Shown one piece after another: positions 6,517 through 9,704 of a stretch of DNA of 64,000 nucleotides; the stretch's first letter is position 1; every line of letters starts with the position of its first letter. The notes beneath the pieces are model-generated. The model saw nothing but the letters and a program-made list of their open reading frames with translations. It was not told where the DNA came from and did not search any database. Source of the stretch: Pedobacter sp. L105 (GTDB lineage: Bacteria > Bacteroidota > Bacteroidia > Sphingobacteriales > Sphingobacteriaceae). The stretch covers positions 387,700 to 451,699 of the forward strand of contig NZ_LMUP01000009.1 of the NCBI RefSeq assembly GCF_009765875.1, read 5' to 3'. Made by a program: the position numbers and the translations under genes.

Positions 6517-7051
6517 TTACTTGCGTTTTTTCAATTTATATATATTAGCCTTTCTTCCATCAGACTTATAAATATCAACTAATTTGTTTCTTGGATTACG
6601 TTTCAAAATATCAGTTACTTTACTCGGTAAAATGTTCTCTGAAAACCTTTCTGTGTATTCAGCTGCAATCTGACAGGAAGTCTTAGGCTCAGAAAGTTTG
6701 TCGGATGCCAAATATATATCCAGGTTTCTGGCATATCCGGGAGTTGCTTCCTGATCAACATAGCTGGAGTCAAAATTAATAATATTTAGATATTCCTTTA
6801 TGTTTTTTGCGTAGTTCCCTTTTGCTTGGAATTGGGAAATCCGGATTAGCAAAATCATAAAACTTAACTCCAAAATAAGCACTGATTTCTTTCATAAAAT
6901 CAATTCCAATACTGTGATCACCATTTTCAAAAGATACCATGTAGGATTGGTTTCTCCCAATAGCTTTAGCAGGGTCATCTTGGGAAACCCCGGCAATAGC
7001 TCGAAATTTTTTCATTTGAGTGCCAAATTCTTTTCTGGCTAATCTTTTCAT
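6517..7051 (-). pseudogene. XRE regulator split by a one-base frameshift
   Basis: The N-terminal frame starts at ATG 7051 (MKRLARKEFGTQMKKFRAIA), carries an HTH (GVSQDDPAKAIGRNQSYMVS) and stops at 6776 after RELRKKHKGISKYY. A second frame continues through IKEYLNIINFDSSYVDQEAT to KANIYKLKKRK at 6517. Removing one A from the A6 run at 6803-6808 (T6 on the plus strand) joins them as ...SKRELRKNIKEYLN..., about 178 residues. That is close in size and layout to the intact neighbour at 7143-7691 (HTH first, basic winged-helix-like end). It could be a true pseudogene, polymerase slippage on A6, or a sequencing error. Upstream in-frame TTG at 7072 is an alternative start. Confidence 0.75.
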
Positions 7052-7142
7052 TACTTTGTATATCAAAGACAATAATATATGTATTGAAAATTTGTACTTG
7101 ATTTTATCTGGAAGATAAGAAGTAATATTGCTTTCTGGAATT

Positions 7143-7691
7143 CTATTTGTTTTTATGCTTGTACAAAAAACTACTTTTTTTCCCAGTCTTATCCTCTTTA
7201 TTCAGCTCTCCGGAATCGGCTAACCTACTCAATTCTCTAGAAAGTTCTTTGCTGGTAAAATCCTGATTGAACTGATCTTTGGCAAAGGCTTTTACTTGGT
7301 ACACCTCTCTATTTTCATGTAAATAGCCGCTTGGTAATAACTTCTCCGTTAAAAAATACTTTACACTGTTTTCCCCTTTCCTTCCTTCAAAAAATTTAGG
7401 GTTATGTTGATTATCATTATAGAATTCTCGAATCGTACTGATATTTTTCCAATTGGGAAGTTGGATCGGGTGTGACGAAAATAGTTCTGCGATTGGGATT
7501 TCAAAAAAATCAGCAATTTTTCCGGCTGTTTTACCAGTAATTAGAAATTTTCCTTTCTTAATGGTTCTCAAATGATTTAAAGAGATGTTGGTAGCGTAGG
7601 ATAACCCAATAATGCTAATGCCGGATTGTTTAAGCAATGATTCTATTTGCGAGCCAATTATGTTAGCCCTTTCCTGATCGTTCTCTTCCAT
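7143..7691 (-). CDS. XRE-type regulator with C-terminal basic domain
   Basis: A 182-residue protein starting at ATG 7691. Residues about 12-75 are a lambda-repressor-like HTH (IESLLKQSGISIIGLSYATN, then ISLNHLRTIKKG and IADFFEIPIAELF). Residues about 95-182 form a second domain rich in Lys/Arg, ending LSRLADSGELNKEDKTGKKS, which looks like a small winged helix. The domain order and length match the frameshifted gene at 6517-7051, so the two are tandem paralogues. It is divergent from the promoter at 7737-7768 with only about 45 bases between, so it may control that transcript. Specific targets are unknown. Confidence 0.75.
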   Translation of the reverse strand: MEENDQERANIIGSQIESLLKQSGISIIGLSYATNISLNHLRTIKKGKFLITGKTAGKIADFFEIPIAELFSSHPIQLPNWKNISTIREFYNDNQHNPKFFEGRKGENSVKYFLTEKLLPSGYLHENREVYQVKAFAKDQFNQDFTSKELSRELSRLADSGELNKEDKTGKKSSFLYKHKNK

Positions 7692-7736: not shown

Positions 7737-7768
7737 TTTGTTATTTTGAATTCAGAATTATATCTTTG
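7737..7768 (+). promoter_or_regulatory. Bacteroidota-type promoter
   Basis: TTTG at 7737-7740, exactly 20 bases, then TATCTTTG at 7761-7768. This matches the known Bacteroidetes primary-sigma pattern TTTG-N19-21-TAnnTTTG. Transcription would begin near 7775 and run into the folded RNA segment at 7827-7983. Confidence 0.65.
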
Positions 7769-7826
7769 CTTTATAAGAATTGAAAGTAGTACACTTTTAT
7801 AAGGTATTTCGGCCAAAGAAACTTTG

Positions 7827-7983
7827 CAATGACAGACCTAGGAAATCTAAAAGCGCGCAAAGTATGGTAAGAGTACCCGTTTTCTTTATCTTTGTATAAT
7901 AGAAAATGGGTTACTCCCCGTATCATGTGCTTAAGAAACTTTTAGTTTCACCTATCCTAGGGGGTGTCATTGTGGTACGGGAG
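7827..7983 (+). ncRNA. Candidate structured RNA with a pseudoknot
   Basis: A non-coding segment with nested and interlocked pairing. P1 joins CAATGACA (7827-7834) to TGTCATTG (7965-7972) and CCTAGGA (7837-7843) to TCCTAGG (7955-7961), 15 bp around a 2/3-base internal loop. Inside it, P2 joins GAGTACCCGTTTTC (7871-7884) to GAAAATGGGTTACTC (7902-7916) with one bulge. P3 is the perfect hairpin GAAACT-TTT-AGTTTC (7935-7949). CCCGTA (7917-7922, inside P1) can pair with TACGGG (7976-7981, outside P1), which makes a pseudoknot; its extension to ACTC competes with P2. It lies about 50 bases after a good promoter. It does not match tmRNA, RNase P, SRP or other RNA classes I know by sequence. The exact ends are unknown; the transcript may run to the terminator at 8332-8398. 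Confidence 0.5.
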
Positions 7984-8050
7984 TAGTCCATTTTTCTATT
8001 TCCTTTAAGCTTTCAAGGTTCGATATGTATGTATATAATAATATTGAATT

Positions 8051-8143
8051 ATGAAAAATTTAAAAATCAAGTTATTCGCATTACCAGCAGGCTTAAGTCG
8101 CTTTGAAGTGCTATTTGCGAAAAAACCTAAAAATCCTAGCTGA
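8051..8143 (+). CDS. Possible 30-aa peptide
   Basis: ATG 8051 to TGA 8143 encodes MKNLKIKLFALPAGLSRFEV then LFAKKPKNPS. The peptide is basic and amphipathic with no signal cleavage site. It lies about 70 bases after the folded RNA and on the same strand, inside the stretch that ends at the terminator 8332-8398. It could be a leader or small secreted peptide, or chance. A second 17-codon frame (8273-8326, MRINPIHSFKNIIEPPD) lies just before the terminator. Confidence 0.3.
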   Translation: MKNLKIKLFALPAGLSRFEVLFAKKPKNPS

Positions 8144-8331
8144 CTTATTTCTGTCTGGAGTTAACTAATTAAAAAGTATCTTTTTTTTCTGGCTAAGTTA
8201 TTAATAAAACGATCTAAAAAGCCGTAATGGCCATGCTTTGTCCAATTTTTGGAAAACTAAATATATACTACAATGAGAATTAACCCTATCCATTCATTCA
8301 AAAACATTATCGAACCCCCTGATTGACATTG

Positions 8332-8398
8332 AATACACACGCGGTCGGGCAATTTAGGTTGGTTACTGGTAATACGTACCGGCCGCTGTGTATTTTTT
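8332..8398 (+). terminator. Strong intrinsic terminator
   Basis: The arm 8332-8348 (AATACACACGCGGTCGG) pairs with 8379-8394 (CCGGCCGCTGTGTATT) over 16 bp with one bulged C and one G·U, followed by T to 8398. The loop is 30 bases. Since no full-size gene lies upstream on this strand, it probably ends the transcript from the promoter at 7737-7768. Confidence 0.8.
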
Positions 8399-8457: not shown

Positions 8458-8664
8458 ATGAAAGCAAAAAATCGCTTAAGGGAATTACTATGTCTGAAAT
8501 TTTCGCCCAGAGAAGGAGTCATTCTGCTCCTTATTCTATTGAGTAATTCTTGTTTAAACCGTCCTGCGCTAGCGCAATCCAAAAGAAAGGCCATACCAGC
8601 TGGTTCAAGCTGTGTAATAATTTCAACAGCGAATTACAGCAAATTCATAAATACTAACGCTTAA
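8458..8664 (+). CDS. Small ORF with a signal-peptide-like segment
   Basis: 68 codons (MKAKNRLRELLCLKFSPREG...) with a hydrophobic core GVILLLILLSNSCLN and a possible cleavage after RPALA. The remainder is short and featureless (KRKAIPAGSSCVIISTANYS). The basic start, core and A-x-A-Q site are like the signal peptides of Bacteroidota outer-membrane proteins. It could therefore be the relic of a larger secreted protein or a small secreted peptide. It ends 11 bases before the next gene at 8676. Weak evidence overall. Confidence 0.35.
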   Translation: MKAKNRLRELLCLKFSPREGVILLLILLSNSCLNRPALAQSKRKAIPAGSSCVIISTANYSKFINTNA

Positions 8665-8675
8665 AATGAACACTT

Positions 8676-9704
8676 ATGAAATCCATTTTAAATTTAACCC
8701 CTGCACCGGTTTTATTGAGTGAAGTCGCCAAAGGTAGTCCTGCTAAAGGCACATTGTCTGCAAAGAATATACTATTTGAAGTGGTTTTGGAAGAGGGGAT
8801 AACCAGCAAACCATTTCTAGCGCTTTATGAGAAAGGGATAGACCAATATGACTTGTCAGATAAGGGGAAAACAATAATACACGCAAGATCTGGTATAGAT
8901 AACACTTATATCTTCGAATTGAAAGATCAATCCGGAGCTTTATATTTTTCATTGTTGTTAACGGGATATCTAATGGATGTAACGGTGGCCAGGGAATTTC
9001 ATTTTGAGCCGGGCGACCGCGTTAGAATTAAGATAAGTAAAACGGATGTACCCAATATTTATGATCTTGACTTTTCCGGCTTAGGTTCTGCAAAGTACAG
9101 ATGTCAGAATGAATTTCTATATGCTAAAGAAACGGATATGGTTAAAGTGCTGCCAGAATTTGCAAATGATAATCAGCATCAGGCAGGTAACAAACCGTTA
9201 AGATATACCAACTTATTATATGATTTAATAGAAAAGTACCAGCCAGAAATGTCAGATTATTCTTATCATTTATTGCATGCCGATGTATTGGGAAGCCTGG
9301 GCAAATATCTGTATTCTGATTTACAGGTTAAATTACATGATCAACTCTATAAAAAAGATTTGTTAGGCTTTGAACAGTTATCGAAGAACTTTTCAGATAA
9401 TTATAAATTTGACTTTACAAGAAATATTCCTGATCGTGTTTTATCCGATTCTAAGGAATATGCTCTTTTTATGCTTGAAAAGATAAAAACAGAAGTTTTA
9501 ATGGATTTTAAGACTGTCGATTATCATATTGTTTATGAAAGGGTGAAGAGGATATACAATGCCGTTTTGAAGGATAAGATGATCATTCTTTTATTTAACC
9601 ATTATTGCGCCAGGTTTAATGATAATGATGGGGAGATCTTACGTGATGCTCTGGTTGTTGTAAAGAATAAAAAATACCGGAAAATATTGGAAACATTTAA
9701 TTAA
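8676..9704 (+). CDS. TlpA-family-like protein lacking the thioredoxin domain
   Basis: A 342-residue protein not confidently assigned. The N-terminal third is beta-rich, ending in FEPGDRVRIKISKTD and then FSGLGSAKYRCQNEF. The rest is helical (YSYHLLHADVLGSLGKYLYS). 'PGDxVxI...FSGxGSAKYxCQ' followed by a helical middle is, from memory, the layout of large TlpA-type thiol-disulfide proteins of Pedobacter and relatives. Those carry a CxxC thioredoxin domain at the C-terminus. Here the chain ends before any such domain and without CxxC, so it may be truncated or a divergent non-redox member. No clear signal peptide is seen, and the 68-codon ORF just upstream may once have supplied one. Confidence 0.5.
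   Translation: MKSILNLTPAPVLLSEVAKGSPAKGTLSAKNILFEVVLEEGITSKPFLALYEKGIDQYDLSDKGKTIIHARSGIDNTYIFELKDQSGALYFSLLLTGYLMDVTVAREFHFEPGDRVRIKISKTDVPNIYDLDFSGLGSAKYRCQNEFLYAKETDMVKVLPEFANDNQHQAGNKPLRYTNLLYDLIEKYQPEMSDYSYHLLHADVLGSLGKYLYSDLQVKLHDQLYKKDLLGFEQLSKNFSDNYKFDFTRNIPDRVLSDSKEYALFMLEKIKTEVLMDFKTVDYHIVYERVKRIYNAVLKDKMIILLFNHYCARFNDNDGEILRDALVVVKNKKYRKILETFN

Follow-up and report, generated by a model that had tools for sequence, protein, structure and literature searches.

The window, by which we mean the whole stretch of DNA analysed (64,000 nucleotides of Pedobacter sp. L105, contig NZ_LMUP01000009.1, positions 387,700 to 451,699), carries a 209-nt structured RNA that, judged from its sequence, is a diverged homologue (a superfamily member) of RF01715 with a score below the gathering threshold, and hence no new class. 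Covariation among its relatives shows a compact, doubly pseudoknotted fold made of the helices P0, P1, P2a, P3 and PY. Moreover, the combination of this RNA structure with a mini-ORF whose next-to-last residue is Pro is strongly supported by comparison of the copies. The balance of the evidence leans slightly towards a leader that acts in cis, where a switch in folding and the arrest of a ribosome at the PPX-stop end of a mini-ORF would together decide whether transcription continues.

Identity and distribution of the RNA

The Pedo-repair RNA (Rfam RF01715) was described by Weinberg et al., 2010 (PMC2864571). A cmscan search with an E-value threshold matched positions 7815-8023 of the window (plus strand) to RF01715 over model positions 1-211, with 86.1 bits and E=2.1e-19. 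The gathering score of RF01715 is 150 bits, of which the window copy falls short, and the Rfam scan at the gathering threshold returned no match for the window RNA because this cut-off is strict. An earlier note on this DNA, made from the letters alone, had presented the RNA as a candidate new one that it could match to no known class; the full-length match does not support its being new. The pairing of RF01715 is common to close relatives of the window RNA and is kept by compensatory changes. With our own model, R1, which was built including the window sequence, the window RNA scores 127.7 bits.

The genome scans covered samples of each group under strict filters, so that all their counts are lower bounds. 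RF01715 was found in 8 of 99 genomes at the genus level and in 19 of 400 at the family level, and R1 was positive in 34 of 400 genomes at the order level, some of which form a more diverged group with scores of 33-46 bits. R1 found no match outside the window's own genome in 345 genomes of the class. The R1 E-values are rough, and weak matches were treated as real because they show the same gene order and small ORF as the strong ones. The window genome has eight RF01715 copies, all below 150 bits. The highest RF01715 scores belong to genome G047 (BAL39), whose six copies above the cut-off in the genus scan are the only ones among the genomes scanned that pass the gathering score. Searching genome contigs with a degenerate DNA pattern was abandoned, since nearly all matches were due to chance; of 20 loci re-tested with R1, only those on the two BAL39 contigs were real. 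The comparative set consists of 54 copies in Sphingobacteriaceae, and the structure statistics refer to 32 aligned copies.

Fold, switch strands and promoter motifs

The RNA and its promoter region comprise the following features.

7737-7768, plus strand: probable promoter, TTTG (7737-7740), 20 nt, TATCTTTG (7761-7768), of the Bacteroidota -33/-7 type by sequence
7815-8023, plus strand: Pedo-repair-type structured RNA (RF01715), from the full-length cmscan match and the R1 match
7821-7825, plus strand: 5' strand of P0, ACTTT (extends to GC at 7826-7827), second pseudoknot, pairs with 7859-7863
7826-7842, plus strand: 5' strand of P1, including CCTAGG at 7837-7842, from covariation
7851-7857, plus strand: 5' strand of P2a, pairs with 7926-7932
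7859-7863, plus strand: 3' strand of P0, AAAGT, pairs with 7821-7825
7863-7884, plus strand: X, 5' side of the P2b hairpin, rival of Y in pairing with X'
7887-7894, plus strand: TAnnTTTG in the apical loop of P2b, at a conserved position across copies
7905-7922, plus strand: X', the switch strand, pairs with X or Y
7926-7932, plus strand: 3' strand of P2a, pairs with 7851-7857
7935-7949, plus strand: P3 hairpin, stem 7935-7940/7944-7949, from covariation
7956-7973, plus strand: 3' strand of P1, including CCTAGG at 7956-7961, from covariation
7976-7992, plus strand: Y, 3' side of PY, the long helix of the pseudoknot, pairs with X'

For the 239-nt strand the folding energy is -73.7 kcal/mol (z=-5.45), a value that none of 200 shuffles reaches. 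The stems P1, P2 and P3 around a three-way junction, as originally proposed, are present: P1 pairs 7826-7833 with 7966-7973 and 7837-7842 with 7956-7961, and P2 consists of 7851-7857/7926-7932 plus the hairpin 7863-7922. The earlier note had staked its fold on homologues with compensatory changes, and many were found. Two-sided changes occur at 3/5 pairs of P0 (97.5% of cells paired), at 4/6 pairs of the CCTAGG part of P1 (99% paired), at all 8/8 aligned pairs of P2a and at 8/13 pairs of PY. For P0, P1b, P2a, P3 and PY combined, 93.9% of the cells in the 32 aligned copies are paired and 28/37 pairs show two-sided changes; the 153 cells with such changes compare with 47 in shuffles (0/500). When the partner strands are slid against each other, pairing falls to 40-54%. 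P0 (AACTTTG with CAAAGTT) and PY (X':Y) each cross P1, and neither is part of the Rfam structure of RF01715.

The crossing CCCGTA/TACGGG helix noticed at the outset is real and longer than claimed, pairing 7905-7922 with 7976-7992 at -23.3 kcal/mol in the window. Across the 32 aligned copies, PY comprises about 17-20 bp and is almost perfectly paired. The mean energy of X':Y for a copy's own strands is -30.3 kcal/mol, as opposed to -23.3 kcal/mol with permuted partners (z=-10.6), and in L054 each of the two PY strands has lost a base compared with L053. For X:X' the corresponding values are -17.9 and -15.4 kcal/mol (z=-7.5, 0/5000); its column-wise covariation (P2b) is weaker than this permutation result, which counts against the P2b side of the switch. 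Since X' is unable to pair with X and Y at once, the idea of two states that share a strand between the pseudoknot and P2, already voiced in the first reading, is borne out at the level of pairing. Thus, the comparative data support two exclusive RNA states, one with X:X' (P2b) and the other with X':Y (PY).

The sequence at 7737-7768 fits the Bacteroidota -33/-7 promoter consensus, as given in PMC7366714, and is a probable promoter, in line with the first reading. A generic sigma-70 scan did not flag it, which is expected because this consensus is not of the sigma-70 kind. The upstream TAnnTTTG is present in 33 of the 54 copies. A close match to the same Bacteroidota -7 consensus also occurs in the loop, at roughly one position, in 51 of them and is thus more conserved than the one upstream; the background for an exact TAnnTTTG is 0.04 per 90 nt. 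The candidates for the loop motif at 7887-7894 are an internal promoter, a pause site or an RNA motif.

The same region could also be read as a DNA element, in which 7887-7894 would be an internal promoter between inverted repeats, possibly invertible or a binding site, and the hairpins by-products. X/X' and X'/Y are inverted repeats, and the loop motif outranks the upstream one (51 versus 33 of 54). However, P0, P1 and P2a show the covariation of RNA pairs, both nested and crossed and with G-U among them, and a single orientation is seen in 54/54 copies, which disfavours an invertible promoter. Moreover, X and X' are about 20 bp apart, a short distance compared with known invertible promoters, and this counts against the explanation as well, which we regard as very improbable.

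Small ORFs, terminators and neighbouring genes

Besides the RNA, the locus contains the following features.

6776-7072, minus strand: second XRE-type gene, matches an HTH Pfam family
7143-7691, minus strand: divergent regulator of the HTH (XRE) type, which may control the leader promoter (HTH_26, E=4.9e-6)
8051-8143, plus strand: small ORF 1, MKNLKIKLFALPAGLSRFEVLFAKKPKNPS-stop, positional equivalent of the small ORFs with a penultimate Pro
8273-8326, plus strand: small ORF 2, MRINPIHSFKNIIEPPD-stop, conserved in six paralogues, directly before the terminator at 8332-8398
8332-8398, plus strand: terminator-like hairpin (8332-8394) plus T run, 5 nt past the stop of ORF 2
8458-9704, plus strand: led gene, split into ORFs of 68 and 342 aa, probable TlpA-like fragment, from paralogue comparison

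The small ORFs at 8051-8143 and 8273-8326 were missing from the original feature list. In 47 of the 54 copies, Pro is the next-to-last residue of the first small ORF 3' of the RNA, compared with 401 of 6971 (5.8%) of other ATG ORFs in the same DNA; the nominal significance of this difference is overstated, as the copies are related and some start codons, including part of those in divergent copies, were picked by eye. The ORFs typically end in PP[GSTED]-stop or APE-stop, but also in NP[ESV] and similar, with E, G, S, T and D as the commonest last residues, and are otherwise widely variable in sequence. Their Pro codons vary at the third base, which indicates that the constraint acts on the peptide. 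In most copies, the start ATG lies within a hairpin made with the 3' end of the RNA. Against this pattern, ORF 1 of the window ends in NPS rather than PPX and its start-codon hairpin is degenerate. The penultimate Pro is absent from the first ORF in 7 of the 54 copies; in G252, G322 and G172a a later ORF ends in ICPP[EV]-stop despite such a first ORF. ORF 2 has the form M[RQ][IT]N[PQ]IHSF[KR]NII[EKR]PPD-stop in six paralogues of the window genome, where it directly precedes the hairpin. Among these paralogues its Pro codons differ by synonymous changes, and small ORFs across the family share its C-terminal motif.

The motif KN[LI]I..P[ED]-stop has matches in 37 of 201 family genomes, and the control with the reversed pattern gave a single match. 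Among 247 class genomes there were three matches outside the family, two of which end in TGG and lack a stop. Of 26 motif matches in 14 genomes, 16 lie away from any known Pedo-repair RNA, and at these 16 the divergent ORF, the leader and operon-like downstream ORFs are arranged in a similar way. Judged by a small number of shuffles, most of the leaders that lack an R1 match have a long pairing resembling X'/Y, and a TAnnTTTG immediately precedes the 5' arm of this pairing. This suggests that R1-less leaders with the same mini-ORF are sister RNA families. Leaders with KN[LI]I..P[ED]-stop and no clear R1 match are L252, L254-L260, L263, L264, L266, L267, L271, L272, L274 and L275.

These findings bear on the possibility of an ordinary ligand-sensing riboswitch, whose pseudoknotted core would bind a metabolite and whose X/X'/Y exchange would control the gene, the small ORFs being incidental. 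A complex covarying fold with two exclusive states, located in cis before receptor operons, would suit it. However, the C-terminus of the small ORF is conserved as a peptide, and the same small ORF and gene order occur at loci without an R1 match, which suggests that what these loci have in common is the peptide and not one aptamer. Moreover, the 2010 authors scored 'switch' as 'n' for Pedo-repair (PMC2864571). We consider such a riboswitch unlikely.

The 54 loci fall into two populations, 35 canonical and 19 dispersed Pedobacter loci. At canonical loci a divergent ORF with a length of 70 aa or more and a start 70-260 nt upstream is present in 34/35, and SusC and TlpA are found downstream in 31/35 and 29/35, respectively. 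Pfam searches on representatives confirmed the TonB receptor, thioredoxin/AhpC-TSA and HTH domains, and gave no match for some of the divergent ORFs. The two XRE-type genes on the minus strand of the window (7143-7691 and 6776-7072) likewise match HTH Pfam families. The dispersed set includes all eight copies of the window genome and six of BAL39, none of its loci has SusC, and the divergent ORF is kept at 2/19, the window and G24. A palindrome, TGTCAATATTGACA or close to it, near the leader promoter upstream of G10, G82, G252 and G322 (L049, L050, L182 and L183) may serve the divergent XRE gene as its operator.

In the window, the RNA probably leads a shortened, decaying fragment of a TlpA-like gene. 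Three paralogues of this gene are a single ORF of 409-426 aa; compared with them, the window copy is interrupted by two in-frame stops. Part of a 493-aa protein encoded downstream of SusD in G018 shares 35% identity with the family, and the family's distant homologues are proteins of about 500 aa encoded directly downstream of SusD, with a thioredoxin-like end as judged by eye. Direct comparison of the 342-aa ORF with the neighbours' TlpA failed to identify it as TlpA, and the link runs via the intermediate homologues. An RNA copy in BAL39 adjoins RadC, which probably explains the "repair" of the name. Five copies in the window genome (G000) are followed 3' by members of a 79-aa ORF family without a Pfam match (L018, 3983-4219, and equivalents). 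In copy d (C19; L021, about 1368-2904) the RNA and the 79-aa ORF are separated by an ORF that by eye resembles a transposase.

The region directly 3' of the small ORF forms a strong hairpin in the window and in several other copies. The strong terminator seen at 8332-8398 holds up as a hairpin with a T run: at -25.0 kcal/mol, 8332-8394 is matched by 0/10 shuffles, and changes in its stem are compensated among paralogues. Its loop, ATTTAGGTTGGTTACTGGTAATAC (about 8349-8372), is nearly invariant among paralogues, six of which have it unchanged. At 8 of 43 loci the stop is followed by a terminator of -15 kcal/mol or better, compared with 3.1 expected by shuffling, and at least one such match, in G142, includes coding sequence. 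The idea that each small ORF has an intrinsic terminator behind it was dropped, as a clear one is present in a minority of copies. The tract after the stop has 22% C and 9% G in the dispersed set and is clear there only.

This layout also speaks to whether the RNA might be a free-standing, trans-acting small RNA or the passenger of a mobile repeat whose copies are scattered in Pedobacter genomes. The eight copies in G000 and six in BAL39/G047 are dispersed among varied neighbours, and a transcript of about 620 nt ending at the terminator had been proposed. That transcript is weakened by the position of the terminator right after a conserved small ORF: 5 nt past the ORF 2 stop, it looks like an attenuator within a leader, not the end of a free-standing 620-nt RNA. 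Almost every copy is followed by a small ORF, the canonical copies share regulator and operon, and neither a mobility gene nor a target-site repeat has been demonstrated. We consider these two variants distinctly unlikely. A cis-acting leader fits better, since the RNA, the small ORF ending on Pro and the downstream gene occur in the same order in relatives.

Proposed mechanism and comparison with known systems

For this leader, we infer arrest, attenuation and a signal from the arrangement described above. The divergent regulator would set when the leader promoter is transcribed. The choice between X and Y by X' would then set translation of the small ORF, whose start codon lies in the hairpin with the 3' end of the RNA, and the ribosome would arrest at the PPX-stop end. 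The arrested ribosome would prevent the following terminator from acting, so that transcription passes, as in TnaC and CruR. In the window, this terminator would be the hairpin at 8332-8398, and in other copies a C-rich, G-poor and possibly Rho-dependent tract.

The TnaC leader peptide of E. coli is encoded by a short ORF with Pro at the stop or close to it, and a termination region comes next. The small ORFs described here have no sequence similarity to TnaC, and their Pro is next to last. What is found, as in TnaC and CruR, is a short ORF with a conserved C-terminal Pro motif before a regulated gene (47/54 copies, together with the gene order). Ribosomes are slowed by consecutive prolines, an effect that EF-P relieves (PMC4176338). 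In CruR of Bordetella, arrest at a C-terminal RAPP blocks Rho, so that the TonB-dependent transporter gene bfrG is expressed (PMC9426467). The likeness lies in a uORF with a proline-rich C-terminus before a TonB-dependent receptor and in the tract with more C than G after some copies. In contrast to CruR, neither DUF2946 nor CXXC was found in the small ORFs, the motif forms the extreme C-terminus (PPX-stop) and differs from RAPP, a structured RNA precedes it and arrest is a prediction. uORFs for RAPP/RGPP arrest peptides, mostly secreted proteins, are enriched before TonB receptor genes (PMC12992588). They share with our loci a C-terminal Pro motif upstream of TonB receptors, and a few of the sister loci end in RAP[ED]-stop. 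However, most endings here are xPP[ED]-stop or PP[GST]-stop, and many of the peptides have 14-50 residues; by their endings, the small ORFs of the 54 copies do not belong to the RAPP or RGPP type. With regard to Pedo-repair itself, the window RNA has the full-length model match and the same P1-P2-P3 plan. It differs in its score below the gathering threshold, its two extra covarying pseudoknots, a much wider host range and a canonical neighbour that is SusC/TlpA, not DNA repair.

In the papers searched, no described case of a leader peptide before SusC was found. We give an even chance to the reading that Sphingobacteriaceae possess an undescribed cassette, in which a divergent XRE-type regulator, a doubly pseudoknotted two-state leader RNA and a PPX-stop arrest mini-ORF would control SusC/SusD/TlpA operons for outer-membrane receptors. 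In this reading, several RNA families would share the X/X'/Y logic, Pedo-repair being one of them and named after atypical, dispersed copies. RF01715 could be rebuilt with P0 and PY, and its 150-bit gathering score drops every homologue found outside BAL39. An orphan Rfam class gains a likely job and a corrected structure, and the proposed leader points to a possible control of nutrient-receptor operons by ribosome arrest in this group of Bacteroidota.
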